Shown: in pieces, positions 10,145-56,133 of the stretch
Layout of the letters: every line of letters begins with the position of its first letter
How positions within the stretch are numbered: position 1 is the stretch's first letter
NCBI GenBank assembly: GCA_002169695.1
Contig: NHJO01000026.1
Coordinates: 1 to 56,591 of the forward strand
Direction: 5' to 3'
Source of the DNA: a bacterium TMED217
Lineage (GTDB): Bacteria; Fidelibacterota; Marinisomatia; Marinisomatales; UBA1611
DNA length: 56,591 bases
Program-made: the position numbers and the translations under genes
The notes under the pieces: model-generated
What the model saw: only the letters and a program-made list of their open reading frames with translations
Databases searched by the model: none
Told to the model about the DNA's origin: nothing

Positions 10145-10578
10145 TTATTAGAAAAGGTCAAATCTTTGATTTGAAGTCAGTTATAAATATTGAAAAAAAT
10201 GCATACGACAAACCATATTGGAATGAATCAATGCTAAAAAGACTATTTAATAAAGACTCTAATGAAATTATTTGGATAACTGAGATTAAACAACAAATAG
10301 TAGGCTTTTTGATTGAGCAGCGATGTGATGATGAAATCAATCTTCTTAATCTTGCTATTGATAAATCCTTTCAAAATAGAGGTATAGGGGGTGAGATGGT
10401 GAGTTGTTTTCTAAGCATTATTCCTAATAATAGTTGCGTATTTTTGGAAGTCAAGAAAAATAATTTTATAGCGCGAAAGATTTATTCTAATCTTAATTTT
10501 AAGGATATAGATATTAGAAAAAACTATTATAATGATGGTAGTGATGCTTTTATAATGCAATACAAAAAATATTTGTGA
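10141..10578 (+). CDS. rimI: Ribosomal protein S18 alanine N-acetyltransferase-like GNAT enzyme
   Basis: This 145-residue GNAT acetyltransferase is the expected RimI, which acetylates the N-terminus of S18 or related targets. The acetyl-CoA binding motif A is visible as LAIDKSFQNRGIGGEMV (about residues 70-86), with the Q/RxxGxG core, followed by VFLEVKKNNFIARKIYSNLNF typical of RimI's C-terminal half. It overlaps tsaB by 4 nt. The tsaE-tsaB-rimI order strongly supports RimI over an unrelated GNAT, though exact substrate cannot be seen. Confidence 0.88.
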   Translation: MIIRKGQIFDLKSVINIEKNAYDKPYWNESMLKRLFNKDSNEIIWITEIKQQIVGFLIEQRCDDEINLLNLAIDKSFQNRGIGGEMVSCFLSIIPNNSCVFLEVKKNNFIARKIYSNLNFKDIDIRKNYYNDGSDAFIMQYKKYL

Positions 10579-10583
10579 ATAAT

Positions 10584-11420
10584 ATGGATTGGTTTAAACG
10601 TAAAGATAAAAAAATTAAAGAGAAAAATAAAAAATCTATACCAGATGGATTATGGCAAAAGTGTTCATCTTGCAATGAAATTTTATTTAAACCTGAGCTT
10701 GATAAAAGCCTTTCAGTTTGTAGGCATTGCAATTATCATTTCCGCATGCATTATAGAAGGTATTTAGATTTAATTATTGATGAAGGAACATCAGAAAGAT
10801 TATTTAGTTCATTAAAATCTACTAATTTCCTCAATTTTTCAGCTAATCGTGGCTACGATGATCAATTAAAAGATGCTTATCTTAAATCTGGCAAAACTGA
10901 TTCAATAGAGTTTTATAGAGGTAATATAAATAATAAATCTATTATTATGGGTGTTATGAACTTTGATTTTATCGGTGGTAGTATGGGTTCTGTGCTTGGC
11001 GAAGCAATTTCTAGAGCAATAGTCAAATCTAGAGACGAAAAAATCCCATTAATAATAATATGCAAATCTGGTGGAGCAAGAATGCAAGAAGGAGCAATCT
11101 CACTTATGCAACTTGCAAAAATAAGTTCTCAACTTGCAAAATTTTCTAATGAAGGAGGTCTATATATATCCATTCTTACAGACCCAACAACTGGAGGTGT
11201 GACTGCTAGTTATGGTATGCTTGGTGATATAATCTTAGCTGAACCGGGAGCGTTAATTGGTTTCGCGGGTCCAAGAGTAATTAAACAAACAATCGGTCAA
11301 GACTTACCAGAAGGTTTCCAACGCTCGGAGTTTTTACTTGAAAAAGGATTTATTGATCAGATTGTGACAAGAGATCGATTGAAAGATAGACTGTATCAGA
11401 TAATAGATATATTAAATTGA
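10584..11420 (+). CDS. accD: Acetyl-CoA carboxylase carboxyltransferase beta subunit
   Basis: AccD forms the carboxyltransferase with AccA and transfers CO2 from carboxybiotin to acetyl-CoA for fatty-acid synthesis. The protein (278 residues from ATG 10584) has the N-terminal zinc ribbon (C27-x2-C30 and C46-x2-C49) and the crotonase-fold core with GGSMGSVLGEAI, SGGARMQEG and DPTTGGVTASYGMLGD motifs. The frame opens at a GTG (10575) overlapping rimI, but the E. coli family pattern (M-x-W at the start) favours the ATG giving MDWFKRK. No accA lies in the window. It continues into surE with a 4-nt overlap. Confidence 0.95.
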   Translation: MDWFKRKDKKIKEKNKKSIPDGLWQKCSSCNEILFKPELDKSLSVCRHCNYHFRMHYRRYLDLIIDEGTSERLFSSLKSTNFLNFSANRGYDDQLKDAYLKSGKTDSIEFYRGNINNKSIIMGVMNFDFIGGSMGSVLGEAISRAIVKSRDEKIPLIIICKSGGARMQEGAISLMQLAKISSQLAKFSNEGGLYISILTDPTTGGVTASYGMLGDIILAEPGALIGFAGPRVIKQTIGQDLPEGFQRSEFLLEKGFIDQIVTRDRLKDRLYQIIDILN

Positions 11421-13956: not shown

Positions 13957-15789
13957 ATGACTAAAACTATTTTCTTTTTCTTTTTATTATTAATAAATAA
14001 TCTATTTGCAAAATCGGATAAAATAATTCCATCAATAGTTAAAATTGATGGAGTAGTATTTAAATCTAATGAAGAAAATCCATTCACCGGGAAAGTGTCA
14101 ATTTATTGGGAGAATGGTCAATTAAAAGAAGAAGGCCTTTATAGAGATGGTATTAAAAGTGGTCTTTGGAAATATTGGTACATGTCTGGAGTGATTCAAT
14201 CAAAAGGAATATTTAGAAGTAATGCAAGGACAGGTGTCTGGATAGAGTGGTATGAGAATACGAATAAAAAAATACAAACTATCTATAGAAATGGTTTAAA
14301 GAGTGGTAAGGAAATAAATTGGTCAGATGAAGGTAAAAAAGTAAGTGAATACAGTTATCAAGGTGGAAAGAAAAATGGTTCTTTTAGATCTTGGTTTTAT
14401 AATGGTAGAAAAAAATCTACTGGAACTTATATTGATGATGGTTATGATGGGGAAATTATTGAATGGTATGAAAATGGCAAGAAATATAGAGAACAAAATT
14501 ATAAAAATGGAAAAAAAGATGGTTTGATGTTTAGTTGGTATGAAAGTGGTTCAAAAAAAGAGCAAGAGTATTTTACGAGTGGTTTAATAAATGGAGTTCA
14601 TCAGCAGTGGTATGAAAATGGTCAAAAAAAAATAGAAGGTCATTATATTAATGGAAAATATGATGGATTATGGACACAATGGTATGCGAATGGTCAGATA
14701 TTTTTACAGGGTAAGTATACTGAAGATATGTTAATCGGAGAATGGAATCAATGGTATAAAAATGGGAATAAATACTTTTCTGGAAATTATAAAAATAGTA
14801 ATCAGGTTGGTAATTGGATTTATTTTTCACCAGATAGAATTGATAGTACAAAAATATTATACAAAGATGGTAAGCCTGAAAATGGTAAAAAGATAGAATG
14901 GTATGAAAATGGTAAAAAAGAATCTGAGATTACATATGTTAATGGAAAAATAAAAGGGCCTGTAACTTATTGGTATAATAATGGTAATAAAAAATTAGTT
15001 GAAAACTATTCAAATAATCAGCTTGAAGGATCAATAATAAAATGGGACGAGCAGGGTAGAAAATTTCTAAGGAAAAAATATTCGAATGGTGATTTAATTG
15101 AAGAGAAAAAATATAATTATCATGAATTAGGGCAGATAGAATCAACAATAGAATTTATTTATAATAGTAATAATGAGGTTACAAATGAGATTATTACTAG
15201 ATGGTCTATAAAAGGAAAATTACTTTCAAAATTAAATAATGGTAGCATTTGGAAAGGAGAGGTAACTAGTTGGTGGGACGATGATTCAAAAAAGAAAAAA
15301 CAGGTTGTTACTTATTTAGATGGCAAAAAACATGGAAAAGTTCAAGTTTATTATAAAAATAATAATAAACTAAGATATAATGGTAATTATAATAAAGGTT
15401 TCATGAATGGTAAATGGACTTATTATTGGGAAAATGGGAATAAAAAAGCTGAAGGAAAATTTATAAATGGTAATGGTGGTAATAAAAATAAAATAACGAA
15501 TATTCCTACAAATGGTAGGGATGGTCAGTGGTTGAGTTGGCACTCTAACGGTAAAAAATGGTCTGAATTAGATTTCATTGATGGTAAAAAACATGGCTAT
15601 CAAACTAATTGGTATGATAATGGTCAAAAAGAACTTGAAGGTCATTATGAAAATGACAACAAATTAAAAACATGGTTGTGGTGGTATGTTGATGGGAGTC
15701 CAATGCAAGAGGGCATTTTCTATTCTGGAGGTAAATTTGAAGGACTATATTTTATAAATCCTCCAGTTCCTGAGGTCACATATCCATAA
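13957..15789 (+). CDS. Secreted MORN-repeat protein (YwqK-like), about 20 repeats
   Basis: The 610-residue product starts with a signal peptide (about residues 1-18, ending near LFAKS). Residues about 41-600 are almost entirely MORN_2-type repeats of about 23-24 residues with consensus W-x-x-WYENG-x-KK-x-x-G-x-Y-x-NGK-x-G. I count about 20 modules, with a degenerate stretch around 370-450. Such YwqK-type repeats form elongated beta sheets. In many FCB genomes they are annotated as toxin-antitoxin antitoxin YwqK by family name only; nothing here suggests a toxin partner. It may be a surface or periplasmic scaffold. The genes after it are also small secreted proteins. Confidence 0.85.
   Translation: MTKTIFFFFLLLINNLFAKSDKIIPSIVKIDGVVFKSNEENPFTGKVSIYWENGQLKEEGLYRDGIKSGLWKYWYMSGVIQSKGIFRSNARTGVWIEWYENTNKKIQTIYRNGLKSGKEINWSDEGKKVSEYSYQGGKKNGSFRSWFYNGRKKSTGTYIDDGYDGEIIEWYENGKKYREQNYKNGKKDGLMFSWYESGSKKEQEYFTSGLINGVHQQWYENGQKKIEGHYINGKYDGLWTQWYANGQIFLQGKYTEDMLIGEWNQWYKNGNKYFSGNYKNSNQVGNWIYFSPDRIDSTKILYKDGKPENGKKIEWYENGKKESEITYVNGKIKGPVTYWYNNGNKKLVENYSNNQLEGSIIKWDEQGRKFLRKKYSNGDLIEEKKYNYHELGQIESTIEFIYNSNNEVTNEIITRWSIKGKLLSKLNNGSIWKGEVTSWWDDDSKKKKQVVTYLDGKKHGKVQVYYKNNNKLRYNGNYNKGFMNGKWTYYWENGNKKAEGKFINGNGGNKNKITNIPTNGRDGQWLSWHSNGKKWSELDFIDGKKHGYQTNWYDNGQKELEGHYENDNKLKTWLWWYVDGSPMQEGIFYSGGKFEGLYFINPPVPEVTYP
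14077..15759 (+). repeat. Tandem 69-72 nt coding repeat (MORN_2 modules)
   Basis: The gene at 13957 is built from in-frame tandem units of about 69-72 nt. A recurring core TGGTATGAAAATGG is seen near 14464, 14606 and 14898. Units differ from each other at many positions, so this is an old, diverged array rather than a recent expansion. A break in periodicity falls at about 15060-15260. Confidence 0.8.
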
Positions 15790-44068: not shown

Positions 44069-45301
44069 TTGGATAAAGCGCTACTTGTAGGAATAATTCT
44101 TCCGAATCATAATAAAATAGATATAGAAAATCATCTTTCTGAGTTAAGCATGCTTGCTGAGACAGCGGGTGTGGAAGTTTTAGGAGAGATTACACAAAAT
44201 CTATCAAACATAAATCCAGCATTTTATGTTGGAAAAGGCAAAGCAAGTCAGGTCGTAGAAAAAGCTAAGGTTTTAGATGCAAATCTAATTATTTTTGATG
44301 AAGAGTTAAGTCCTGCTCAGATAAAAAATTATCATAAATTATCTAAAAATATTAAAGTATTAGATAGGAGTGCACTTATACTAGATATATTTAAAAAACA
44401 TGCAAAAACTAGAGAAGCAAAAACTCAAGTGGAATTAGCATTATGTCAGTATTTGTTACCTCGATTAACAAGGCAGTGGACACACTTAGAAAGACAAATG
44501 GGCGGTGTAGGAACAAGGGCCGGAATGGGAGAGACTCAGATTGAGATTGATAGGCGGTTGATTAGAGATAAAATATCTAAATTAAAATTAGACTTAAAAA
44601 AAATAGATTCAGAAAGAATAACTCAAAGTCAAAAGAGGGGAAACGAATTTAGAGTTGCGCTTGTAGGATATACTAATGCTGGTAAATCAACATTATTTAA
44701 TTCTTTAACTGGGAATGATGTTTATGTTCAAGACCAATTATTCGCAACACTTGATACAACAGTAAGAAAACTAAGACTTAATAAAATGCATCGAGTTCTT
44801 ATTAGTGACACTGTGGGCTTTATTAGAAAATTACCCCATAATCTGGTGGCTTCCTTTAGGAGTACTCTTAAAGAGTTATTAGAAGCAGATCTTATTCTTA
44901 TAGTTTTAGATGCAAGTTCTAGCCTTATTGATGAGCATCTTAATACAATTAAAAATGTATTATCTGATTTAAATGCTATCGATATACCAAAGAGTATTAT
45001 CATGAATAAAATTGACCAGATAGATAAAGAACAAGAATTAAAAAAAATAAGGTCTAAATTTCCTGGTGCTATTTTTATTTCAGCTTTACATCATTTAAAA
45101 TTAGATGATATTAAGTTTCATATTATAGATAAAATTGAAAGTGAATTTGAAACATTTGATATAACTATTCCGTATCATAAGGGGAAAACCATTTCACAAT
45201 TACAAAATAAAGTTGAAATAATAGAAAGCAATTATGGGGACACAGAAATTTCTCTTAAGATTAAAGGGAAGAAAGATATTATTGAAAAAATATTAAGATG
45301 A
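44069..45301 (+). CDS. hflX: GTPase HflX
   Basis: HflX is a ribosome-associated GTPase that splits stalled ribosomes. The 410-residue protein has the N-terminal nucleotide-binding region (AETAGVEVLGEITQ), the glycine-rich LERQMGGVGTRAGMGETQIE linker and the G domain with GYTNAGKST (G1, 200-208), DTVGFIRKLPHNLVASFRSTL (G3 and switch II) and NKID (G4). It starts at TTG 44069; there is no ATG before the conserved N-terminus, so the TTG is credible. It overlaps the acuI-type gene by 4 nt. Confidence 0.95.
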   Translation: MDKALLVGIILPNHNKIDIENHLSELSMLAETAGVEVLGEITQNLSNINPAFYVGKGKASQVVEKAKVLDANLIIFDEELSPAQIKNYHKLSKNIKVLDRSALILDIFKKHAKTREAKTQVELALCQYLLPRLTRQWTHLERQMGGVGTRAGMGETQIEIDRRLIRDKISKLKLDLKKIDSERITQSQKRGNEFRVALVGYTNAGKSTLFNSLTGNDVYVQDQLFATLDTTVRKLRLNKMHRVLISDTVGFIRKLPHNLVASFRSTLKELLEADLILIVLDASSSLIDEHLNTIKNVLSDLNAIDIPKSIIMNKIDQIDKEQELKKIRSKFPGAIFISALHHLKLDDIKFHIIDKIESEFETFDITIPYHKGKTISQLQNKVEIIESNYGDTEISLKIKGKKDIIEKILR

Positions 45302-46323
45302 AAGTGATTAAAAATAAAAATATGAATAAATTAGAAGATTTTTTTTTTAATTCAATAATTATTGAAGAAAAAAATGGAAAATTTTCTCAAAATATTAAAA
45401 AAAAGAAGAATAGTGAATTACCTGCTGGAGACTTATTAATCAAAGTGCAGTATTCTTCTTTGAACTATAAAGATGCATTATCTTTTTCTGGTAATAAAGG
45501 AGTAACCAAATATTACCCACATACTCCTGGAATTGATGCCATGGGTATTATAGAGTCTTCGAGAACTGAAAAATTTAAGCCTGGCGATAAGGTACTTGTT
45601 ACGGGTTTTGATCTGGGGATGAATACTCCTGGTGGTTTTGGTGAGTATATTAGTGTCTCAAAAGATTGGGCAACCTTTCTTCCAGATGATTTAAGACCAA
45701 GAGACTCCATGGTATTAGGTACTGCTGGAATTACCGCTGGCCTATGTATTAATTCGCTCCAGGATAAACACACTATTAAAGACCAAAAAGCAATAGTCAC
45801 TGGTGCAACTGGAGGGGTAGGTTGTATAGCTATAAAACTCCTTGCGAAACTTGGAGCTAATGTAACTGCGATAACCGGCAAAGAGGATTCGAAAGAATTT
45901 TTATACTCTATTGGTTCTAATGAGGTCATACTAAGAAATGAGTTCCTAGAATCAGTTAGAAAACCAATGGGGAAAGGACGCTGGGACATAGCAGTTGATG
46001 TAGTAGGTGGGGAAATATTATCCGGGTTAATTGCTAGTATGAGTTATGGAGGTACAATAACGTGTTGTGGACTAGTAGCTAGTCCAGAATTTGATACTAC
46101 TGTATTTCCATTTATACTTAGAGGGATTAGTCTAATTGGGATTGATTCAGGTGAGGCGCCAATTCATGAAAAAACTAAAATTTGGGAGAAGTTTGCTGTT
46201 GAATGGAAATTAGACAATTTAGATAGTTTGCACCGGGTTGTAGATATGGAAGATATGATGAATGAAATAAAAAAGATTTTAAATGGGAAACAAGTAGGTA
46301 GAATTGTTCTTAAGCATAATTAA
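45298..46323 (+). CDS. acuI: YhdH/AcuI-type NADPH-dependent acrylyl-CoA reductase
   Basis: This 341-residue zinc-free medium-chain reductase matches the AcuI/YhdH family, which reduces acryloyl-CoA to propionyl-CoA. Conserved segments are SSLNYKDALSFSG, TPGIDAMGII, GTAGITAGLCINSL, GATGGVGCIAIKLLAKLG (NADPH loop), YGGTITCCGLVASPEF and FPFILRGISLIGIDS. The 4-nt ATGA overlap with hflX supports ATG 45298; ATG 45322 is a possible alternative. It stands before a beta-oxidation cluster, so a role in short-chain or DMSP-derived acyl-CoA metabolism is likely but not proven. Confidence 0.85.
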   Translation: MKVIKNKNMNKLEDFFFNSIIIEEKNGKFSQNIKKKKNSELPAGDLLIKVQYSSLNYKDALSFSGNKGVTKYYPHTPGIDAMGIIESSRTEKFKPGDKVLVTGFDLGMNTPGGFGEYISVSKDWATFLPDDLRPRDSMVLGTAGITAGLCINSLQDKHTIKDQKAIVTGATGGVGCIAIKLLAKLGANVTAITGKEDSKEFLYSIGSNEVILRNEFLESVRKPMGKGRWDIAVDVVGGEILSGLIASMSYGGTITCCGLVASPEFDTTVFPFILRGISLIGIDSGEAPIHEKTKIWEKFAVEWKLDNLDSLHRVVDMEDMMNEIKKILNGKQVGRIVLKHN

Positions 46324-46355: not shown

Positions 46356-47558
46356 ATGAATAATGATGCATATGTTTTTGATGCAATAAGGACTCCAAGA
46401 GGGAAAAAAGATGGTGCTCTAAATCAATTAACACCAACGGATATTTTAGCAAAATTATTAAAAGCTCTACAGCAAAAACATAATCTTGATACATCTCAGG
46501 TTGAAGATGTTGTTATAGGTTGTGTTACTCCAGTAGGTGAGCAGGGTGGTAATATAGCAAAAGCAGCGGTTCAATATGCTGGTTGGGATGAGAGTGTAAC
46601 TGGTATGCAGGTAAATAGATTTTGCGCCTCAGGATTAGAGGCTATTAATTTGGCTGCTATGAAAATAAAATCTGGTTGGGAGGACCTTATTGTCGCCGGT
46701 GGCATTGATTGTATGTCACGAGTGCCTATGGGTTCTGATGGAGGTTCAATCATGTTTGAACCAAAGGTCAATCTTAAAACTCAATTTGTACCACAAGGAA
46801 TTAGCGCAGATTTAATTGCGACTTTGGGTGACTATTATCGTGAAGATGTTGACTCCTTTGCTTTTGAATCTCAAAAAAGAGCTACTATTGCTTTAAATAA
46901 AGGATATTTTAAATCTATTATTCCTTTGATTGATCAAAATGGGCTAAAGATTCTTGATTATGATGAGCACATTAGGCCAAAAACAACCATGGAAGATTTA
47001 AGAGCTTTGAAACCTTCTTTTGAAACGATAGGAAATCTAGGTTTCGACCAGATAGCAATTGGGAAGTATACAGAAGTTGAGAGTATTAACCATGTCCATA
47101 CTGCAGGTAATTCATCTGGTATTGCAGATGGAGCTGCTACGGTTTTAATTGGTTCAAAGCAAAAAGGTAATGAATTGTGTATCGTACCTCGAGCAAAAAT
47201 TATATCAATAGCCACTGTATCTAAAGATTCAACAATTATGTTAACTGGACTTGGGCCTGCATCAAAAAAAGCATTAAAAAAAGTGGGTATGGATATCAAA
47301 GATATTGACATTATTGAAGCAAACGAAGCTTTTGCTTCTGTTATTCTACGTTTTATTGATGATATGGGATTAGATAGTACTGAAAAAGTAAACGTGAATG
47401 GTGGCGCAATTGCAATGGGTCATCCTATTGGAGCTACCGGTGCTATGCTACTTGGTACAGCCATTGATGAAATGGAGAGAAGAGATCTTAATACTGGACT
47501 AATTACTTTATGTGCTGCTGGCGGCATGGGTATTAGTACAATCATTGAACGAGTTTAA
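46356..47558 (+). CDS. fadA: Acetyl-CoA C-acyltransferase (thiolase)
   Basis: The 400-residue thiolase has catalytic C90 ([10 protein letters not shown]), H356 (GHPIGATGA) and C386 (TLCAAGGMG), plus the NEAFASV motif. It catalyses the last step of beta-oxidation. An AGGA at 46343-46346, nine nt before the ATG, is a fair ribosome site. It precedes the FadB-type gene by 20 nt, together making a fatty acid oxidation pair. The exact chain length is unclear. Confidence 0.93.
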
Positions 47559-47577: not shown

Positions 47578-49710
47578 ATGGCTTTTAATTATAAAAAAGA
47601 TAATCAGAATATTGTCACGGTAACAATGGATATGGTGGGGCGAACTACAAATGTTATAAATGAAGAGTTCTTCCAGTTATGGTCAAACACAATAGAAAGA
47701 CTAGAGAGTGAAAAAGATTTATCAGGAGTGATTCTTACGTCTGCTAAGAAGACTTTTTTAGCAGGTGGAGACTTAGAAATGATTTTCAAATTAAAAGATC
47801 CAAAGTATACTTTTGAACTCATAGAAAAACTAAAGGCTAAACAAAGAAGATTAGAAATCTTGCAAAAACCTGTAGTCGCTGCAATAAATGGAACTGCACT
47901 TGGCGGAGGCCTTGAAATTGCACTTTGTTGTAACTATAGGATTGCACTTAATGATGCCTTTATAAAATTCGGGTTTCCAGAGGTTAATTTTGGTATTATG
48001 CCAGCTGCTGGTGGTATTGTAAGATCTATTAGATTACTTGGCCTGGACACTGCGCTACCTTTTTTAATGGAAGGAAAACAAATAACCCCTGAGATTGCTA
48101 AAAAAGTAGGTTTCGTTGATGAAATTGTAGATAATCAAGAAGAATTGATTATTAAAGCGAAAAAATATATTTTTGAAAACCCTGAGGCTTGTCAGCTTTG
48201 GGATAAAAAGGGATATAAAATTCCAGGTGGTAACCCCCAAAATCCTAAAATAGCTAAGATGCTTGCTATTGCGCCAGCAATATTAAAGAAAAAAACTCAG
48301 GGTAATTATCCTGCACCAGAGGCAATCCTCTCTGCAGCGGTTGAAGGTTCGTTTGTAGATTTTGAAGTAGCAAGTAGAATAGAGTCTAGATATTTTGTTG
48401 AATTAGTTGTTGGTAAAGTAGCAAAAAATATGATTAATACTTTTTGGTTTAACTTAAATAAAATTAATTCCGGCTCAAGTAGACCAAAAGATATCCCCTA
48501 TTTAAAAACAAAGAAACTAGGTGTATTAGGTTCTGGGCTTATGGGCCATGGCATTACCTATGTTGCTGCTTTAAATGGAATCGAAGTTATAATGATTGAC
48601 TCAATCATAGATAATGCTCAGCTAGGTTTAGATAAGATTGAAGCAATATTAAATAATGGAATCAAAATAGGTCTTATATCAGAAAAGAAAAAGAATGAAG
48701 TTTTAGAGCGTATTACTGTTACGGACAAATACAATAAACTAGAGGGATGTGATTTAATCATAGAGGCCGTTTATGAGGATAGAGATTTAAAAGGAAAGGT
48801 AACCACTTTGGCTGAAGAAATAATGAAATCTAATGGTGTATTTGCATCAAATACATCAACAATACCAATTAGTAGACTAGCAGAAAAATCTATAAGGCCT
48901 GAGAAATTTATTGGAATTCATTTTTTTTCTCCTGTTCATAAGATGAAATTGGTTGAAATAATCAAAGGAGAAAAAACAAGTACAAAGACTTTAGCTAAAG
49001 CATTTGATTTTGTTAAAAAAATAAAAAAATTACCGATTGTAGTTAATGATAGCCGGGGATTTTATACTTCAAGAGTCTTTGAGAGATATACTTCTGAAGG
49101 GATGGCATTGTTAGCAGAAGGTAATTCTGCTGAGTCAATAGAGTCTGCAGGTAAAAAAGCTGGACATCCAGTTGGACCATTAGCTGTAGTTGATGAAATT
49201 AATATTGGACTTGCAGCACATATTAGAGACAAAAACAGGGAAGAACTTTCTGGGAAGGAAAAACAATTATCAAAGGGTAACTGGGATATTGTTATAGATT
49301 TTATGATAAAGGATGTGAAGAGACTTGGGAGATCTAATGGTGGTGGTTTTTATGAATATCCGGAAGGTGGCAAAAAATATTTGTGGCCTGAATTAAAAAC
49401 ATATTTTCCACTTTCAAAAGAACCATTATCGCAAGATGAAATGATTGATCGACTTTGTTTTATTCAATGTATTGAGACCATTCGGTGCTTTGAAGAGGGT
49501 GTTTTGAATTCTGTAGCTGATGCTAATATTGGAAGCATTTTTGGCTGGGGTTTTGCACCATTTAAGGGAGGTACTCTACAATTTGTCAATGATTATGGTC
49601 TAAAAGAATTTGTTCAAAGAGCTAAAGAACTAAAAGAGAATTATGGTAATCGTTTTTCACCTCCAAAATTGCTTTTAGATATGGCAGTTAAAGAAAAAAT
49701 ATTTAATTAA
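47578..49710 (+). CDS. fadB: Bifunctional enoyl-CoA hydratase / 3-hydroxyacyl-CoA dehydrogenase (FadB/FadJ-type)
   Basis: The 710-residue fusion has an N-terminal crotonase domain with both catalytic Glu (E113 in GGGLE, E135 in FPEVN). An NAD-binding dehydrogenase domain follows (GVLGSGLMG, about 316-324) with catalytic H448 in FIGIHFFSP, then two C-terminal helical domains (about 490-590, 620-705). It carries out steps two and three of beta-oxidation. It follows the thiolase gene. FadB or FadJ orthology cannot be decided. Confidence 0.94.
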   Translation: MAFNYKKDNQNIVTVTMDMVGRTTNVINEEFFQLWSNTIERLESEKDLSGVILTSAKKTFLAGGDLEMIFKLKDPKYTFELIEKLKAKQRRLEILQKPVVAAINGTALGGGLEIALCCNYRIALNDAFIKFGFPEVNFGIMPAAGGIVRSIRLLGLDTALPFLMEGKQITPEIAKKVGFVDEIVDNQEELIIKAKKYIFENPEACQLWDKKGYKIPGGNPQNPKIAKMLAIAPAILKKKTQGNYPAPEAILSAAVEGSFVDFEVASRIESRYFVELVVGKVAKNMINTFWFNLNKINSGSSRPKDIPYLKTKKLGVLGSGLMGHGITYVAALNGIEVIMIDSIIDNAQLGLDKIEAILNNGIKIGLISEKKKNEVLERITVTDKYNKLEGCDLIIEAVYEDRDLKGKVTTLAEEIMKSNGVFASNTSTIPISRLAEKSIRPEKFIGIHFFSPVHKMKLVEIIKGEKTSTKTLAKAFDFVKKIKKLPIVVNDSRGFYTSRVFERYTSEGMALLAEGNSAESIESAGKKAGHPVGPLAVVDEINIGLAAHIRDKNREELSGKEKQLSKGNWDIVIDFMIKDVKRLGRSNGGGFYEYPEGGKKYLWPELKTYFPLSKEPLSQDEMIDRLCFIQCIETIRCFEEGVLNSVADANIGSIFGWGFAPFKGGTLQFVNDYGLKEFVQRAKELKENYGNRFSPPKLLLDMAVKEKIFN

Positions 49711-49748
49711 ATGAGTTTATTAATTAATAATAATTTTTGATTTTGGTT

Positions 49749-50186
49749 ATGTTAAATCGTAATCTGATAGGGAAAGTATATAAACCGTTAACCTTTAAAA
49801 TAACAGGGCAGAGGCTCAAAATTTTCGCGAAGGCTACTGGACAAACAGACCCTATATATTTTGATCATGAAGCTGCTATTATGCAAGGGCATAAAGGTAT
49901 TATGTGCCCACCGACATTTTTAATTGTTGTTGGAATGGAACAGAAAAAACCATTTCAATTCTTAGAAGATTTAGAAATTAAAATTGAACGAATTTTACAT
50001 GCTGGGCAAGAATTTAATTATGAAGAAATAGTTTATGAAGGAGATAAGTTAGTAATGGAGACAAAGATTATCGATATGTATGATAAAAAAGAAGGGGCAT
50101 TACAATTTTGTGTGCTTCAAACAAAATTCAAAAACCAAAATAGTATACATGTTGCAACATTAGAGAATACCATAGTCGTAAGATGA
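49749..50186 (+). CDS. MaoC-like hotdog protein, degenerate active site
   Basis: The 145-residue protein has a hotdog fold of the MaoC_dehydrat_N/FAS1-hydratase type with the segment FAKATGQTDPIYFDHEAA, then CPPTFLIV. At the hydratase Asp and His positions it has Q32 and Y37 in place of the D and H seen in the next gene's product. This is the pattern of a non-catalytic partner subunit, as in mycobacterial HadA/HadC. The frame opens at TTG 49737, but the ATG at 49749 fits better. It is 7 nt before the partner gene. Confidence 0.78.
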   Translation: MLNRNLIGKVYKPLTFKITGQRLKIFAKATGQTDPIYFDHEAAIMQGHKGIMCPPTFLIVVGMEQKKPFQFLEDLEIKIERILHAGQEFNYEEIVYEGDKLVMETKIIDMYDKKEGALQFCVLQTKFKNQNSIHVATLENTIVVR

Positions 50187-50193
50187 GTAAATT

Positions 50194-50607
50194 GTGAATT
50201 TTAATTTAGATAATATTTCTGTTGGGGATAAAATTCCTGAGTTATTAATCGAACCAATAACAAGGTCTGCATTAAAAGCATATGCTCATGCTTCTGGCGA
50301 TTTTAATCCTATACATATTGATTCTAATTATGCAAAAAAAGTTGGAATGAAAGATGTTTTTGCGCATGGAATGCTTATTCTGGCATATCTAGGAAGAGCT
50401 TTAACGAATATTATTCCACAATCAAATTTGAAAAATTTAAATACTAATTTTTGCTCAATAACGAATATTGGTGATGTCTTAACTTGCAGTGGGAGCGTAA
50501 GCGAGGTTCATAATTATAATTCTAAATTAATGATAGTTTTTGATATAATGGCAGCAGATGAAACAGGAGATATTAAGATTATTGGAACTGCAACTATTGA
50601 AAAATAG
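50194..50607 (+). CDS. MaoC-family (R)-enoyl-CoA hydratase
   Basis: The 137-residue MaoC hotdog protein has the catalytic dyad D36 and H41 in ASGDFNPIHIDSNYAKKVG, followed by FAHGMLILAYLGRAL. The gene starts at a GTG (50194). With the preceding gene it likely forms a heterodimeric hydratase, analogous to the HadAB/HadBC arrangement. It would hydrate an enoyl-CoA or enoyl-ACP. Confidence 0.85.
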   Translation: MNFNLDNISVGDKIPELLIEPITRSALKAYAHASGDFNPIHIDSNYAKKVGMKDVFAHGMLILAYLGRALTNIIPQSNLKNLNTNFCSITNIGDVLTCSGSVSEVHNYNSKLMIVFDIMAADETGDIKIIGTATIEK

Positions 50608-50666: not shown

Positions 50667-52460
50667 ATGGATAAAAAAGTTAGAATAGGTTGTGCTTCTG
50701 CATTTTGGGGTGATACGGATACTGCAGCGCCTCAATTGGTGAATTACGGGGAAATAGATTATTTAGTTTTTGATTATTTAGCAGAAGTAACTATGTCTAT
50801 TTTAGCATCTGCAAAACAAAGAAATGAAAATCTTGGTTATGCTATTGATTTTATCAAACATATCGGACCGTTGCTTAGTGCCATTAAAGACAAAAATATT
50901 AAAGTAATAAGCAATGCAGGAGGGGTGAATCTAAATGCCTGTAGAGAAGCATTGTTAGAAGAAGCAAAAGAACAGGATTTAAATTTTCAAATTGCGATTG
51001 TTGAAGGAGACAACATCCTTCATAAGGAAGGAGATCTACGATCTATTCCTGTTAAGGAGATTGAGACAAATGATTTTCTACCCGAGAATGTATTGAGCGT
51101 AAATGCTTATTTAGGCGCGCCTAGTATTAAAAAGGCCCTTGAGCTTGGAGCAGACATCATTATTACTGGGAGATGTGTTGACACTGCTGTGGTACTAGGT
51201 CCTCTTATGTATGAATTTGATTGGAAAATTACAGATTATGATTTATTAGCTAGTGGTAGTTTGGCTGGTCATATTATTGAGTGTGGTGCCCAGTGCACTG
51301 GGGGAAACTTTACAGATTGGGAACTAATAAATAATTTTGAGAATATGGGATTTCCAATTGTTGAGGTATTATCAAATGGAGATTTTTTAGTTGTTAAACC
51401 TAATGCTACAGGAGGATTAATTAATAGTGGTACTGTCTCTGAACAGTTTTTGTATGAGATTGGTGATCCAGGAGCTTATTTGTTACCCGATGTAGTTTGC
51501 GATTTTACTCAGGTAACAATTGAAGACAGAGGTGAAGATTGTGTATTCATTAGTGGTGCAAGAGGGCTTCCACCTACGAATACGTATAAGGTTTCAGCCA
51601 CCTATACTGACGGCTATAAAATTGTTGCTACTATTGTCATCGGTGGTGCAAAAGCAGTTAAAAAAGCTAATGTAATTGGAGAGGCAATTTTAGAAAAAAC
51701 ACGTTTAATTTTTAATGAAAAAGGTTTATCAGATTATACTGAAACAAATATTGGTGTTTTAGGGTCTGAAGCCATTTATGGTAGCGATTCAGAGGATTAT
51801 ATAAATACTAGAGAAGTAGTGCTTAGACTAGTAGCAACTCATCAAAATAAATCTGCATTAATTGTTTTATCAAGAGAAATAGCCCAGGCAGCGACAGGAA
51901 TGGCCCCCGGTGTGATGAATTATTTGGGAGGTCGCCCTTCTATATCTTCTTCAGTAAAATTATTTTCTTTTTTATTATCAAAAGACTATTTTGATGTTAG
52001 TGTAAACATTGATAAAAATAAAGTCCCAGTATCTATTATTAATAATCTTCAAACTCAAATATACAAAGGCGCAGATCATGCTGTGCTTGGAAAAAATTTA
52101 AATGAAAGATTAGATAAAGAGACAAAACTAATAAATCTAGCATATGTTAGAAGTGGGGATAAAGGTGATCATGCGAATATTGGTGTTATAGCAAGAAAAC
52201 CTGATTTTTTGCGATATATAAAACATAGTCTAACAATAGAACGCTTACAGAATCATTTTTCACATGTGTTAAATGGTTCTATTCATTGTTGGGAAGTACC
52301 AGGTATAAATGGTCTTAATTTTTTACTTGAAAATAGTTTAGGTGGTGGTGGTATGGCTAGTTTAAATATTGATCCACAGGGGAAGGCATATGCACAGCAG
52401 ATTATAGATTTTAAAATTGCAGTGCCAGAGTTTATTTATAATGAAGTACACAAGAAATAA
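50667..52460 (+). CDS. atuA: AtuA-family protein (DUF1446, acyclic terpene utilization)
   Basis: The 597-residue protein begins RIGCASAFWGDTDTAAPQLV and continues with the NAGGVNLNACREALL, GRCVDTAVVLGPLMYEF and PNATGGLINSGTVSEQ segments characteristic of DUF1446/AtuA proteins. A C-terminal domain with LAYVRSGDKGDHANIGV is the AtuA-like ferredoxin-fold module. AtuA belongs to the citronellol/geraniol degradation operon in Pseudomonas; its activity is unresolved. AAGG at 50654-50657 precedes the ATG by 9 nt. The carboxylase, hydratase and dehydrogenase genes follow. Confidence 0.85.
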   Translation: MDKKVRIGCASAFWGDTDTAAPQLVNYGEIDYLVFDYLAEVTMSILASAKQRNENLGYAIDFIKHIGPLLSAIKDKNIKVISNAGGVNLNACREALLEEAKEQDLNFQIAIVEGDNILHKEGDLRSIPVKEIETNDFLPENVLSVNAYLGAPSIKKALELGADIIITGRCVDTAVVLGPLMYEFDWKITDYDLLASGSLAGHIIECGAQCTGGNFTDWELINNFENMGFPIVEVLSNGDFLVVKPNATGGLINSGTVSEQFLYEIGDPGAYLLPDVVCDFTQVTIEDRGEDCVFISGARGLPPTNTYKVSATYTDGYKIVATIVIGGAKAVKKANVIGEAILEKTRLIFNEKGLSDYTETNIGVLGSEAIYGSDSEDYINTREVVLRLVATHQNKSALIVLSREIAQAATGMAPGVMNYLGGRPSISSSVKLFSFLLSKDYFDVSVNIDKNKVPVSIINNLQTQIYKGADHAVLGKNLNERLDKETKLINLAYVRSGDKGDHANIGVIARKPDFLRYIKHSLTIERLQNHFSHVLNGSIHCWEVPGINGLNFLLENSLGGGGMASLNIDPQGKAYAQQIIDFKIAVPEFIYNEVHKK

Positions 52461-52490
52461 AGTTTAATTAAATATGATAAGGCAGATATA

Positions 52491-54113
52491 ATGGCATCCT
52501 ATAAAACAAAAATAAATATTGAAAATGATAATTTCGAAAAAAATAAAAGTGAAATGATTTCACTTGTAGAGAAATTGGATGAGATAAAAGGCCGCGCAGA
52601 AAAAATATCAGAACGTAGGAGACCTAGATTTATTGAAAGAGGTCAGTTAACCCCGAGAGAAAGACTTTCTTCTTTAATTGATTCCGATATGCCTTTTATC
52701 GAATTATATAATATGATCAGCTATCTAGTTGATGATGACAATCGTGGTACAAGTATTCCCGGGGGAAGTATTATAGCTGGGATTGGGTTTGTTTCTGGCG
52801 TACGTTGTTTAATATTCGTTGATGACAGCGGGATAAATGCTGGCGCTTTGACCGCAAAATCTATAGATAAGGCACTAGGATGTTTAGATATATCTATGAA
52901 ACAAAAACTTCCTTTTATACATCTTGTTGAAAGTGCAGGAATAAACTTAATGAATTATACGGTTGAATTTTGGGCAAGAACAGGTGGGATGTTTAATGGA
53001 CTAGCAAAATTAAGTGCTGCAGGTATTCCAACAATCGCAGTTCTACATGGTCTTTCAACTGCTGGTGGTGCTTATCAACCTGGAATGAGTGATTATGTAG
53101 TAGGAGTAAAAAAGAATGGAATGGCAGCGCTTGCAGGACCGGCATTATTGAAAGCAGCTACGGGACAAATAGCTGATAATGAAGAGCTCGGTGGTAGTGA
53201 GATGCATGCTCGCGTTACAGGATTGGTGGAGTATCTAGCAGATGATGATAGTGAAGCTATTAACATAACTAGGGATATTATTGAAAAACTTGATTGGAAT
53301 TCAAAGTGTAAAAAAAGGGAAGAGGTATCATATAGTAACCCGATAAATGATACAAATGAGATTGCTGGAGTTGTCCCTGTAGATTATAGGACCCCTTATG
53401 AGGTCAGAGAAGTTATTTCTCGGATTGTAGATGCTTCAGATTTTATTGATTTTAAACCAATGTATGGAATCTCTACGGTATGTGTTCAAACAAAAATTTA
53501 TGGTCACTCTTGTGGAATTATTGGTAACAATGGTCCAATTGATCCAAATGGTGCGACAAAGGCTGCTCAATTTATTCAGCTTTGTGGTCAATCCAAAATT
53601 CCACTGATATTTTTTAGTAATACAACTGGATTTATGGTAGGGAAACAATCTGAACAGTTAGGAATGATAAAACATGGTGCTAAAATGATTCAAGCAGTCT
53701 CAAACGTAGATGTTCCTAAGATCACTTTCTATATTGGTGCAAGCTTTGGTGCTGGAAATTATGCGATGTGCGGTTATGCCTATGAGCCAGATTTCCTTTT
53801 TTCTTGGCCAAATGCTGTAACAGGTGTGATGGGGGGTGAACAAGCCGCCAAAACAATGGAGCAGGTTATGATTGCCTCTGCAAAAAGGAAAGGTCTCAAA
53901 TCAGATGAAAATAAAATGAACAAACAGGTTGAAGAGATTACTGATTATTATAATTCTCAGTCAGATGCTTTTTGTACTTCTGGAAGAGGACTTGATAATG
54001 GCATTATTGACCCCAGAGAAACTAGGAAAATTTTAGGGTTTTTATTAGAAACTTGCTGGGAGAGTAATCATCGTAAATTGTCACCTAATACTTTTGGCAT
54101 CGCTAGACTCTAG
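52491..54113 (+). CDS. Acyl-CoA carboxylase carboxyltransferase (beta) subunit
   Basis: The 540-residue protein has the two crotonase-like halves of biotin-dependent acyl-CoA carboxylases: the RGQLTPRERLSSLID start, the GGAYQPGMSDYVVGV oxyanion-hole region and, in the C-half, FSNTTGFMVG and GASFGAGNYAMCGY. It resembles methylcrotonyl-CoA or geranyl-CoA carboxylase beta (AtuC). Context with an AtuA-like protein favours a branched or isoprenoid substrate. The biotin carboxylase/BCCP subunit is not in the window. Confidence 0.88.
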   Translation: MASYKTKINIENDNFEKNKSEMISLVEKLDEIKGRAEKISERRRPRFIERGQLTPRERLSSLIDSDMPFIELYNMISYLVDDDNRGTSIPGGSIIAGIGFVSGVRCLIFVDDSGINAGALTAKSIDKALGCLDISMKQKLPFIHLVESAGINLMNYTVEFWARTGGMFNGLAKLSAAGIPTIAVLHGLSTAGGAYQPGMSDYVVGVKKNGMAALAGPALLKAATGQIADNEELGGSEMHARVTGLVEYLADDDSEAINITRDIIEKLDWNSKCKKREEVSYSNPINDTNEIAGVVPVDYRTPYEVREVISRIVDASDFIDFKPMYGISTVCVQTKIYGHSCGIIGNNGPIDPNGATKAAQFIQLCGQSKIPLIFFSNTTGFMVGKQSEQLGMIKHGAKMIQAVSNVDVPKITFYIGASFGAGNYAMCGYAYEPDFLFSWPNAVTGVMGGEQAAKTMEQVMIASAKRKGLKSDENKMNKQVEEITDYYNSQSDAFCTSGRGLDNGIIDPRETRKILGFLLETCWESNHRKLSPNTFGIARL

Positions 54114-54154
54114 TGACGAATATCATAGTAAGTATCTGATTTATTGAAAAGCAA

Positions 54155-54979
54155 ATGAAAAAATTCTCAAATACAGAAAATCTAATTCTTGAATACCATG
54201 ATGGTTGGTTAGATATTTGGCTAAATAGAATCGAAATTAGAAATGCTTTAACTGAGAGCTTGATAAAGGATCTTCTTAATGTTTTTAATTCTGTTCATAA
54301 TGATAGAGAAGTCCGAGGTATAACCATACGTGGGAAAGAGAACGTATTTTGTGCTGGTGCTGATTTAAAAGCAATGAAAAGAATATCAGAGTCAGGATCT
54401 TCTGCAAAGAAAATAGCACTAGAGATGAGCATGGTATTTGGTAATTTATTTCGTGTTATCAATCAGGCGCCACAGATTATTGTTTCGGTCACAGAGGGTT
54501 TCGCTCTGGCAGGCGGATTTGGCCTTGCTAGTTCATCAGATTTTATTGTTACTATGCCAGATACAAGATTTGCTTTAACTGAAACAAGAATAGGACTTAC
54601 GCCTTCGCAAATATCTCCATATGTGATTAATCGTTTAGGATATAAAAATGCCAGAAAAATGATGTTACTTGGTGCGAATATTAATGGAATGAAAGCTAAA
54701 GAAATAGGATTAGCAGATTATCTGGCTAATGATACTGATAATTTGAAAGAAATTTTAGATGGTATAAAGAATCAGGTTTTTAATTGTTCTCCGAATGCAA
54801 TTGCAATTACTAAAAAAGTTTTTAACATAAATAATTATTTTGACAAAGAAAAAGCTGCGGATTTATTTAGTGATTGTATCGTCAGTGATGATGGAAGGGA
54901 GGGTTTTAATTCTTTTTTTGAAAAAAGAAAACCTAAATGGATCCCTGATAAAAAAAAGAAAAATAATAGTGAGGAATAA
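54155..54979 (+). CDS. Enoyl-CoA hydratase family protein (AtuE-like)
   Basis: The 274-residue crotonase has FCAGADLKAM for the oxyanion hole and AGGFGLASSSD, in which the usual first catalytic Glu is Gly (G123). The second acid is E143 in LTETRIGLTPSQISPYV. This single-Glu pattern with an SQISP motif resembles isohexenylglutaconyl-CoA hydratases (AtuE) and related proteins. It lies between the carboxylase and acyl-CoA dehydrogenase genes, 41 and 2 nt away. Product could hydrate the glutaconyl-type intermediate made by the carboxylase. Confidence 0.82.
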   Translation: MKKFSNTENLILEYHDGWLDIWLNRIEIRNALTESLIKDLLNVFNSVHNDREVRGITIRGKENVFCAGADLKAMKRISESGSSAKKIALEMSMVFGNLFRVINQAPQIIVSVTEGFALAGGFGLASSSDFIVTMPDTRFALTETRIGLTPSQISPYVINRLGYKNARKMMLLGANINGMKAKEIGLADYLANDTDNLKEILDGIKNQVFNCSPNAIAITKKVFNINNYFDKEKAADLFSDCIVSDDGREGFNSFFEKRKPKWIPDKKKKNNSEE

Positions 54980-54981
54980 AA

Positions 54982-56133
54982 ATGTATTTCAATGAAGAAC
55001 AAAAAGCTTTATACAATGCGGTTAAAGAATTTGGTGAAAATGAAATTCGTCCTTTTGCCGAAGAGTGGGAGAAAAATGGTTTTTTCCCTGCACATGAGCT
55101 TTTCAAAAAAATGGGTGACCTTGATCTTTTAGGAATTACAAAAAATGAGAAATATGGTGGAATGGGTCTTGACTATACTTATGGATTAGTGTTCGCAGAA
55201 GCTTTAGGCCATGCAGAGGATAATGGTGTTGTGACGGCTATAGGCGTTCAAACAGATATGGCTACTCCAGCACTTCATAGATATGGAACAGAAGATCTAA
55301 AAAAAGAATTTTTAGTGCCGGCAATAAAAGGAGATATTGTCACTTCAGTAGCAATCAGTGAACCTGGAGGCGGGTCAGATGTCTCATCCTTAAAAACTAG
55401 TGCAGTAAAAAAAGGTGAAGATTATATAATAAATGGTCAAAAAATGTGGATTACAAACGCAACGCAGGCTGATTATTTTTGTGCACTTGTAAATACAAGC
55501 GATGATAAGCCACATGTAAATAAATCCTTAATTATTATTCCATCAGATACTAAAGGGGTTAGCGTTGGAGATAAAATTGATAAACTCGGCCTTAGGACCT
55601 CGGATACTGCTCCAGTGTTCTTTGATAATGTTTGTGTACCGCAAAGATTCAGAATTGGTAATGAAGGAGAGGGTTTTACGATGCAGATGGAACAGTTTCA
55701 AGAGGAAAGACTTTTTATTTCGGCTAGTATTTTAGTTGCGATGGATAACTGTATTGATAAAACCATAGAGTATTGTCAAGCTCGTAAAGCATTTGGCAAA
55801 AGGGTTATTGATAATCAAGCAATTCAGTTTCGTTTATCTGAATTAAAAACAGAAGTAGAAGCTGTTCGTTCTTTAGTCTATCGTGCTTGTCAAAATTATG
55901 TTAGAGGTGAAGATGTTACTCTTTTAGCTTCAATGGCCAAACTTAAAAGTTGTAGGCTAGTAAGAGAAGTTGCAGATACATGTGTTCAATATTATGGCGG
56001 GATGGGGTTTACTTGGGAAAATCAAGCTTCAAAATTATATAGAGATGGTAGGTTGTATTCAATAGGCGGAGGAACAGATGAAATAATGTTGAGAATTATC
56101 TCGAAATATTTAAACATGCTCGGTAAAAAATAA
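54982..56133 (+). CDS. Acyl-CoA dehydrogenase (IVD/citronellyl-CoA type)
   Basis: The 383-residue FAD enzyme has AISEPGGGSDVSSLKTSA and the WITNATQADYF flavin-binding strands, QARKAFGKRVIDNQAIQF and a C-terminal YRDGRLYSIGGGTDEIML. At the position of the common base (E in IYEGT) there is G363. E242 in FQEERLF aligns with the alternative base of isovaleryl-CoA and long-chain dehydrogenases. This fits a branched-chain substrate. GAGGA at 54971-54975 is a good ribosome site. It is the last + strand gene. Confidence 0.92.
   Translation: MYFNEEQKALYNAVKEFGENEIRPFAEEWEKNGFFPAHELFKKMGDLDLLGITKNEKYGGMGLDYTYGLVFAEALGHAEDNGVVTAIGVQTDMATPALHRYGTEDLKKEFLVPAIKGDIVTSVAISEPGGGSDVSSLKTSAVKKGEDYIINGQKMWITNATQADYFCALVNTSDDKPHVNKSLIIIPSDTKGVSVGDKIDKLGLRTSDTAPVFFDNVCVPQRFRIGNEGEGFTMQMEQFQEERLFISASILVAMDNCIDKTIEYCQARKAFGKRVIDNQAIQFRLSELKTEVEAVRSLVYRACQNYVRGEDVTLLASMAKLKSCRLVREVADTCVQYYGGMGFTWENQASKLYRDGRLYSIGGGTDEIMLRIISKYLNMLGKK

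Follow-up and report, generated by a model that had tools for sequence, protein, structure and literature searches.

A run of four genes in bacterium TMED217 raises the question of whether an acyclic terpene utilisation (Atu) module operates in this organism, on which substrates, and with which partner proteins. The 56,591-nucleotide stretch of DNA analysed here (the window, C18:1-56591) belongs to a 1.1 Mb genome that is 63.7% complete, and its contig, C18, runs on to position 79,971. The original prediction was that positions 50667-56133 encode AtuA, a carboxylase, a crotonase and an acyl-CoA dehydrogenase (ACAD) of a terpene rather than a leucine pathway, and reading frames and Pfam matches delimited the four genes at exactly this span.

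Gene content and phylogenetic placement of the module

The features of the window that bear on this question are as follows.

10575..11420, plus strand: housekeeping accD-type CT half of acetyl-CoA carboxylase, at a distance from the module (PF01039 matches in part, C18:10893-11303)
45298..46323, plus strand: AcuI/YhdH-family acrylyl-CoA reductase, same operon (TIGR02823 above cut-off)
46356..47558, plus strand: thiolase, same operon (NF006090 above cut-off)
47578..49710, plus strand: FadJ-like hydratase/3-hydroxyacyl-CoA dehydrogenase, same operon (domain profiles)
49737..50186, plus strand: FAS1-DH/HadA-like hydratase, same operon (frames and domain profiles)
50194..50607, plus strand: MaoC/HadB-like hydratase, same operon (frames and domain profiles)
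50667..52460, plus strand: AtuA, full-length fused form (N-terminal PF07287 and C-terminal PF23544), 597 aa, proposed retro-aldol lyase (frames, Pfam, tree, fold)
52491..54113, plus strand: carboxyltransferase (CT, beta) subunit, AtuC/GCC-beta clade, 540 aa (frames, Pfam, tree)
54155..54979, plus strand: crotonase, marine AtuE group, 274 aa (Pfam and tree)
54982..56133, plus strand: ACAD, AtuD (citronellyl-CoA dehydrogenase) clade, 383 aa (tree)

The AtuA protein scored 455 bits with PF07287 (AtuA) and 90 bits with PF23544 (AtuA_ferredoxin), above the gathering score; the CT scored 371 bits with PF01039, the crotonase 148 bits with PF00378, and the dehydrogenase carries the Pfam domains Acyl-CoA_dh_1/N/M. 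The four genes, separated by 30, 41 and 2 bases, form the end of a plus-strand run whose first gene is the AcuI-like one (45298) or the preceding hflX and whose gaps range from -4 to 59 bases; the order is AcuI-like reductase, thiolase, FadJ, two hydratases, AtuA, CT, crotonase and ACAD; the gaps at the thiolase, FadJ and hydratase genes are 7-59 bases. The AcuI-like gene is linked in many relatives as well. The block AtuA-CT-crotonase-ACAD was found again in relatives, indicating that it is not due to chance, and also in G102 and G125, both outside the first 81 genomes compared. The prediction had singled out the host as a non-pseudomonad, but Atu-type loci are also present in Alpha-, Beta- and Gammaproteobacteria, Myxococcota, Acidobacteriota and Actinomycetota.

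Right of the module, genes on the opposite strand encode an SDR, an AGPS-like FAD enzyme, PlsC, an HMG-CoA reductase and a dicarboxylate-type symporter, with unrelated genes beyond. The first four, consecutive on the minus strand at C18:56184-60653 (L036:184-4653), are conserved in the genus and resemble ether-lipid genes plus an NADPH-type HMG-CoA reductase. Mevalonate breakdown via a degradative HMG-CoA reductase was considered and rejected, since the reductase gene, 3.4 kb right of the module, fitted the NADPH type (280 bits, below the cut-off of 441.8) more closely than the degradative one (57 bits). No AtuB or AtuG dehydrogenase was found within the cluster, the SDR on the right belonging to the converging block, and no AtuH acyl-CoA ligase, which had been thought possibly to lie right of the window, was recognised by eye in the frames of C18:56001-79971. 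Elsewhere, window positions 13957-15789 encode a long protein built of repeated short WYENG-type units, which we take to be MORN-like, and the outer proteins have a sorting-domain style that would fit Marinimicrobia/SAR406.

Trees, all of them quick and with SH-aLRT as the only support, placed all four proteins in Atu-linked clades, in agreement with the predicted family. Among PDB sequences, the CT scored 559 bits with geranyl-CoA carboxylase (GCC) beta (5ikl), 404 with MCC beta (3u9r) and 225 with PCC (1vrg). In a 97-row tree (122 CTs collected, five PCC rows added and some near-duplicate rows removed beforehand), it fell inside a 60-row GCC clade (SH-aLRT 100) separate from MCC and PCC, and there within a 20-row marine subclade (100), where eight relatives from its order group with it (99). 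AU tests rejected constraining it with MCC (p-AU 1e-43) and with the Pseudomonas-type GCC (p-AU 0.003). The ACAD, 60% identical to the gene in the AtuD position of Pseudomonas, lies in a 46-row clade of atu-linked ACADs (AtuD; SH-aLRT 99), apart from IVD, and the crotonase clusters with marine Atu loci (29 rows, SH-aLRT 98). The 21 full-length AtuAs of the order form one clade (SH-aLRT 100), sister to the AtuAs of Pseudomonas, Marinobacter and Acinetobacter (98), and their grouping with marine AtuAs was rejected (AU test, 0.0015). Because the CT and the hydratase go with marine loci but AtuA goes with Pseudomonas-type AtuAs, the module is, as judged from these sequences, composite, with a common history for CT and hydratase and another for AtuA.

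In the substrate pocket, GCC is described as having Gly162 where MCC has Phe191, with a 3-residue insertion in MCC (PMC4673880). The window CT has Thr at this position, lacks the insertion and has no Phe, whereas the MCC-like CTs of the order displayed in our alignment carry both insertion and Phe (the display covered all eleven from AtuA genomes except G018 and G051). Of the GCC pattern of Jurado 2015, the window CT shows the lack of the insertion and of Phe, but it has Thr in place of Gly. Its kin vary at position 162, with Ala in G046 and G062 and Gly in G021 and G102, while G125 and L136 have Phe; the pocket might therefore not be the same as in the Pseudomonas GCC.

Biotin carboxylases of the order and absence of AtuF

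The missing biotin subunit had been predicted possibly to lie right of the window, but the remainder of the contig right of the module holds no biotin gene. AtuF, the alpha subunit with BC, BT and BCCP domains, is absent from this genome and from relatives up to 98% complete, in which only the housekeeping AccC and AccB were found. The outcome named beforehand as refuting the prediction, a carboxylase grouping with PCC or MCC and a biotin subunit encoded with leucine-degradation genes, was not observed. An AtuF query against 15 genomes matched nowhere over its whole chain: AccC aligned up to about residue 444 of 669, and the other matches were AccB and unrelated proteins of ATP-grasp or lipoyl type. 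Nine of the 81 genomes have an AtuC-like CT (at least 64% identity; G000, G001, G002, G003, G005, G006, G021, G046 and G062), and PF02785 detected one biotin carboxylase in each (partial in G001) except G005, which had none; in the neighbourhoods read, namely all of these apart from G001 and G005, it adjoins efp-accB.

The same holds more widely, with at most one biotin carboxylase in 39 of the 40 genomes that have a GCC- or MCC-type CT, the MCC-type CTs of the order likewise lacking an alpha subunit. As a positive control, two biotin carboxylases were seen in 10 genomes, including all eight that have a PCC-like CT, so the search is able to see a second one. One genome that is 92% complete (G007) has an MCC-type CT and HMG-CoA lyase, yet gave no biotin carboxylase match.

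AtuF could be present in parts of the genome that were not assembled, in keeping with the incomplete assembly, but this is highly improbable: no such gene lies beside the CT on the contigs or anywhere in the nine genomes with an AtuC-like CT, three of them 93-98% complete, and it is found near the CT in all 11 of the nearest proteobacterial loci (L134-L144). A biotin carboxylase gene was present in 74 of 80 loci, the other six (L155, L183, L191, L192, L206 and L210) being on short contigs or ending soon past the CT. GCC- and MCC-type CTs occur here in genomes that lack the alpha subunit by which the known holoenzymes are defined, a point to bear in mind when the carbon use of uncultured bacteria is annotated.

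AtuA and HMG-CoA lyase across the order

We found AtuA in 28 of the 81 relatives and in 39 of 130 genomes of the order. Canonical HMG-CoA lyase, defined as at least 43% identity to the Colwellia protein (a line set after viewing the gap to paralogs, which have 39% and less), was present in 24 of the 130, and no genome had both. The p value of this exclusion is 7e-5 if the kinship of the 130 related genomes is ignored and 0.04 by genus; among 49 previously unseen genomes, 11 had AtuA, eight had the lyase and none had both (p 0.11). Forty of the 81 genomes have a CT of GCC or MCC type: 20 of these have AtuA only, 16 have the lyase only, two (G013, G031) have a lyase that is divergent or contig-cut, and two (G008, G035) have neither.

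The exclusion is also visible at one locus. The neighbourhoods of all 31 MCC-like CTs were read, and the following counts cover those with a visible PPIase flank. The distance from PPIase to the MCC-type CT is 29-120 bases in 11 of 11 AtuA genomes, leaving the lyase slot empty, but 976-1763 bases in 11 of 12 genomes without AtuA, in which the lyase, with or without a hydratase, occupies the slot; in G008 (60% complete) the slot is empty and no AtuA was found. For the eight MCC-like CTs without a PPIase flank on their stretch, a lyase was found in six cases (five beside the CT and one, in G022, on another contig), only a fragment in G031 and none in G035. Across one order, the Atu module thus seems to have assumed the job of the classic leucine-breakdown enzyme, hinting at the function of AtuA.

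This distribution bears on whether the module serves terpenes or leucine. A dedicated pathway for isoprenoid acids (citronellyl/geranyl-type) as in Pseudomonas, in which methylcrotonyl-CoA would not be physiological and the MCC CT and HMG-CoA lyase would have been lost by unrelated genome reduction, would fit the Atu clades of all four proteins and the CT without a Phe block at the GCC/MCC position. We nevertheless consider it unlikely, as AtuC-like and MCC-like CTs, present in 9 and 31 of the 81 genomes, never occur together, and those AtuA genomes that retain a Phe-signature MCC-type CT have no HMG-CoA lyase at the same locus. Conversely, the Atu-family parts might act on isovaleryl-, 3-methylcrotonyl- and HMG-CoA only, as a replacement leucine/isovalerate route; complementarity with MCC CT, LiuC-like hydratase and HMG-CoA lyase, and a single dehydrogenase match in G000 and G002, speak for this reading, which we regard as quite unlikely because the CT and ACAD are nested in acyclic-terpene-linked clades distant from MCC and IVD. 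IVD, taken as a marker of leucine use, has no close counterpart in any of the 81 genomes, the best ACAD reaching 43% identity. The predicted Atu-type assignment is supported by the GCC clade of the CT and the AtuD clade of the ACAD. Phytol-derived or terpene acids are candidate substrates, and the module may well have two roles or more, as its distribution is complementary to that of MCC CT and HMG-CoA lyase.

HMG-CoA-lyase-like paralogs (27-36% identity) are present in many AtuA genomes, and one of these, rather than AtuA, might carry out the cleavage. The Cys of the GGCP motif of HMG-CoA lyase is catalytic; Ser or Thr replaces it in 15 of 15 aligned paralogs, while the lyase-like paralog of G068, a genome with split AtuA, retains it. 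The HMG-CoA-lyase-like proteins of AtuA genomes in L273-L287 have GGSP or GGTP at this motif. Such Cys-less paralogs might still be lyases, but cleavage by them is very unlikely, given the lost Cys, the lack of any paralog in G003 (93% complete), G046 (98%) and G062 (97%) and on the stretches read around AtuA, and the fold of AtuA, which is itself a lyase fold.

The AtuA model (pLDDT 90.3) matched just two PDB chains at E <= 0.001, 9evf_A and 9evf_B, both from one citramalate lyase-ADP-pyruvate complex, with E 9e-26 and Z 31.3 over 422 residues for 9evf_A. Many ferredoxin-like domains appeared at Z 7-9 in the structure comparison, which we took as a common fold. AtuA and citramalate lyase have the GR..D, EC and YE..DP residues in common, and the AtuA model resembles citramalate lyase A and B fused into one chain. 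AtuA is split in families f3 and f7 (about 450 + 108 aa), in parallel to the two chains of citramalate lyase. In G005 (L063:7148-8927), AtuA is interrupted by one TAG, giving two frames.

AtuA has been called a supposed acetate lyase, its reaction being a matter of speculation in these papers (PMC4847356, PMC9973270). A DUF1446 gene has been reported downstream of methylaspartate ammonia-lyase by a study that could not find the citramalate-cleaving enzyme (PMC4682846). Among the papers listed in literature searches on AtuA with HMG-CoA lyase, on CmlA and on marine bacteria or Marinimicrobia, none dealt with the arrangement described here. From its modelled fold and the mutual exclusion, AtuA is best read as a putative acetate-releasing lyase that could replace HMG-CoA lyase. 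We tentatively propose, with somewhat less than even confidence, that it represents a third type of enzyme cleaving HMG-CoA, one that releases acetate and has the citramalate-lyase fold, which displaced the canonical lyase in one order, perhaps several times, and that the MCC- and GCC-type gamma-carboxylases there rely on a single AccB-AccC pair, with no alpha subunit of their own. With the swap at a fixed locus and the fold, the guess on AtuA becomes directly assayable.

Two plasmid loci carry related gene sets. In Halalkalicoccus (L070:5342-9669), a symporter, a degradative HMG-CoA reductase and a split AtuA form an independent AtuA-HMG-CoA link, and in Sphingobium (L071:3645-13770) a GCC-type CT and AtuA adjoin methylmalonyl-CoA-mutase-family genes and MeaB.

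Proposed pathway and comparison with known systems

The reading that we prefer, and to which we give an even chance, is that the operon strips 3-methyl branches from acyl-CoAs as an Atu module on shared AccB-AccC, with AtuA as an acetate-releasing lyase that also covers the 3-methylcrotonyl-CoA route. The ACAD would introduce a 2,3-double bond into a 3-methyl-branched acyl-CoA; the GCC-type CT, which we infer to be charged by housekeeping AccB/AccC instead of AtuF, would carboxylate the gamma-methyl; the crotonase would hydrate the product to 3-hydroxy-3-alkylglutaryl-CoA; and AtuA would release acetate to give a 3-oxoacyl-CoA (acetoacetyl-CoA when the alkyl group is methyl), leaving the thiolase, FadJ and hydratases to complete the breakdown. 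Isoprenoids are plausible candidate substrates, and 3-methylcrotonyl-CoA is probably one too. If the module in this order also handles the final steps in the breakdown of 3-methylcrotonyl-CoA, this would explain why AtuA genomes lost the canonical HMG-CoA lyase.

Like Pseudomonas atuABCDEFGH (acyclic terpene utilisation), the window combines AtuA, a CT of AtuC type, an ACAD of AtuD type and a crotonase within a single operon, but in the order A-C-E-D and without AtuF, AtuB/G or AtuH found with it, and its CT belongs to another subclade than the Pseudomonas GCC. The marine proteobacterial AtuA-CT-ECH-AtuF loci (L135, L137-L144) have the order A-C-E and the closest CTs (55-66%) and hydratases; unlike the window, they keep AtuF, and their AtuA is just 41-44% identical. 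Citramalate lyase CmlA/CmlB (PDB 9erq, 9evf) consists of two chains instead of one, is 15% identical and acts on another substrate, but has the fold of both AtuA parts and the same conserved residues. The leucine (Liu) pathway of MCC and HMG-CoA lyase uses a CT and an ACAD of other clades and a lyase of another family, but follows the same logic of gamma-carboxylation, hydration and lyase cleavage and is complementary to AtuA in this order.
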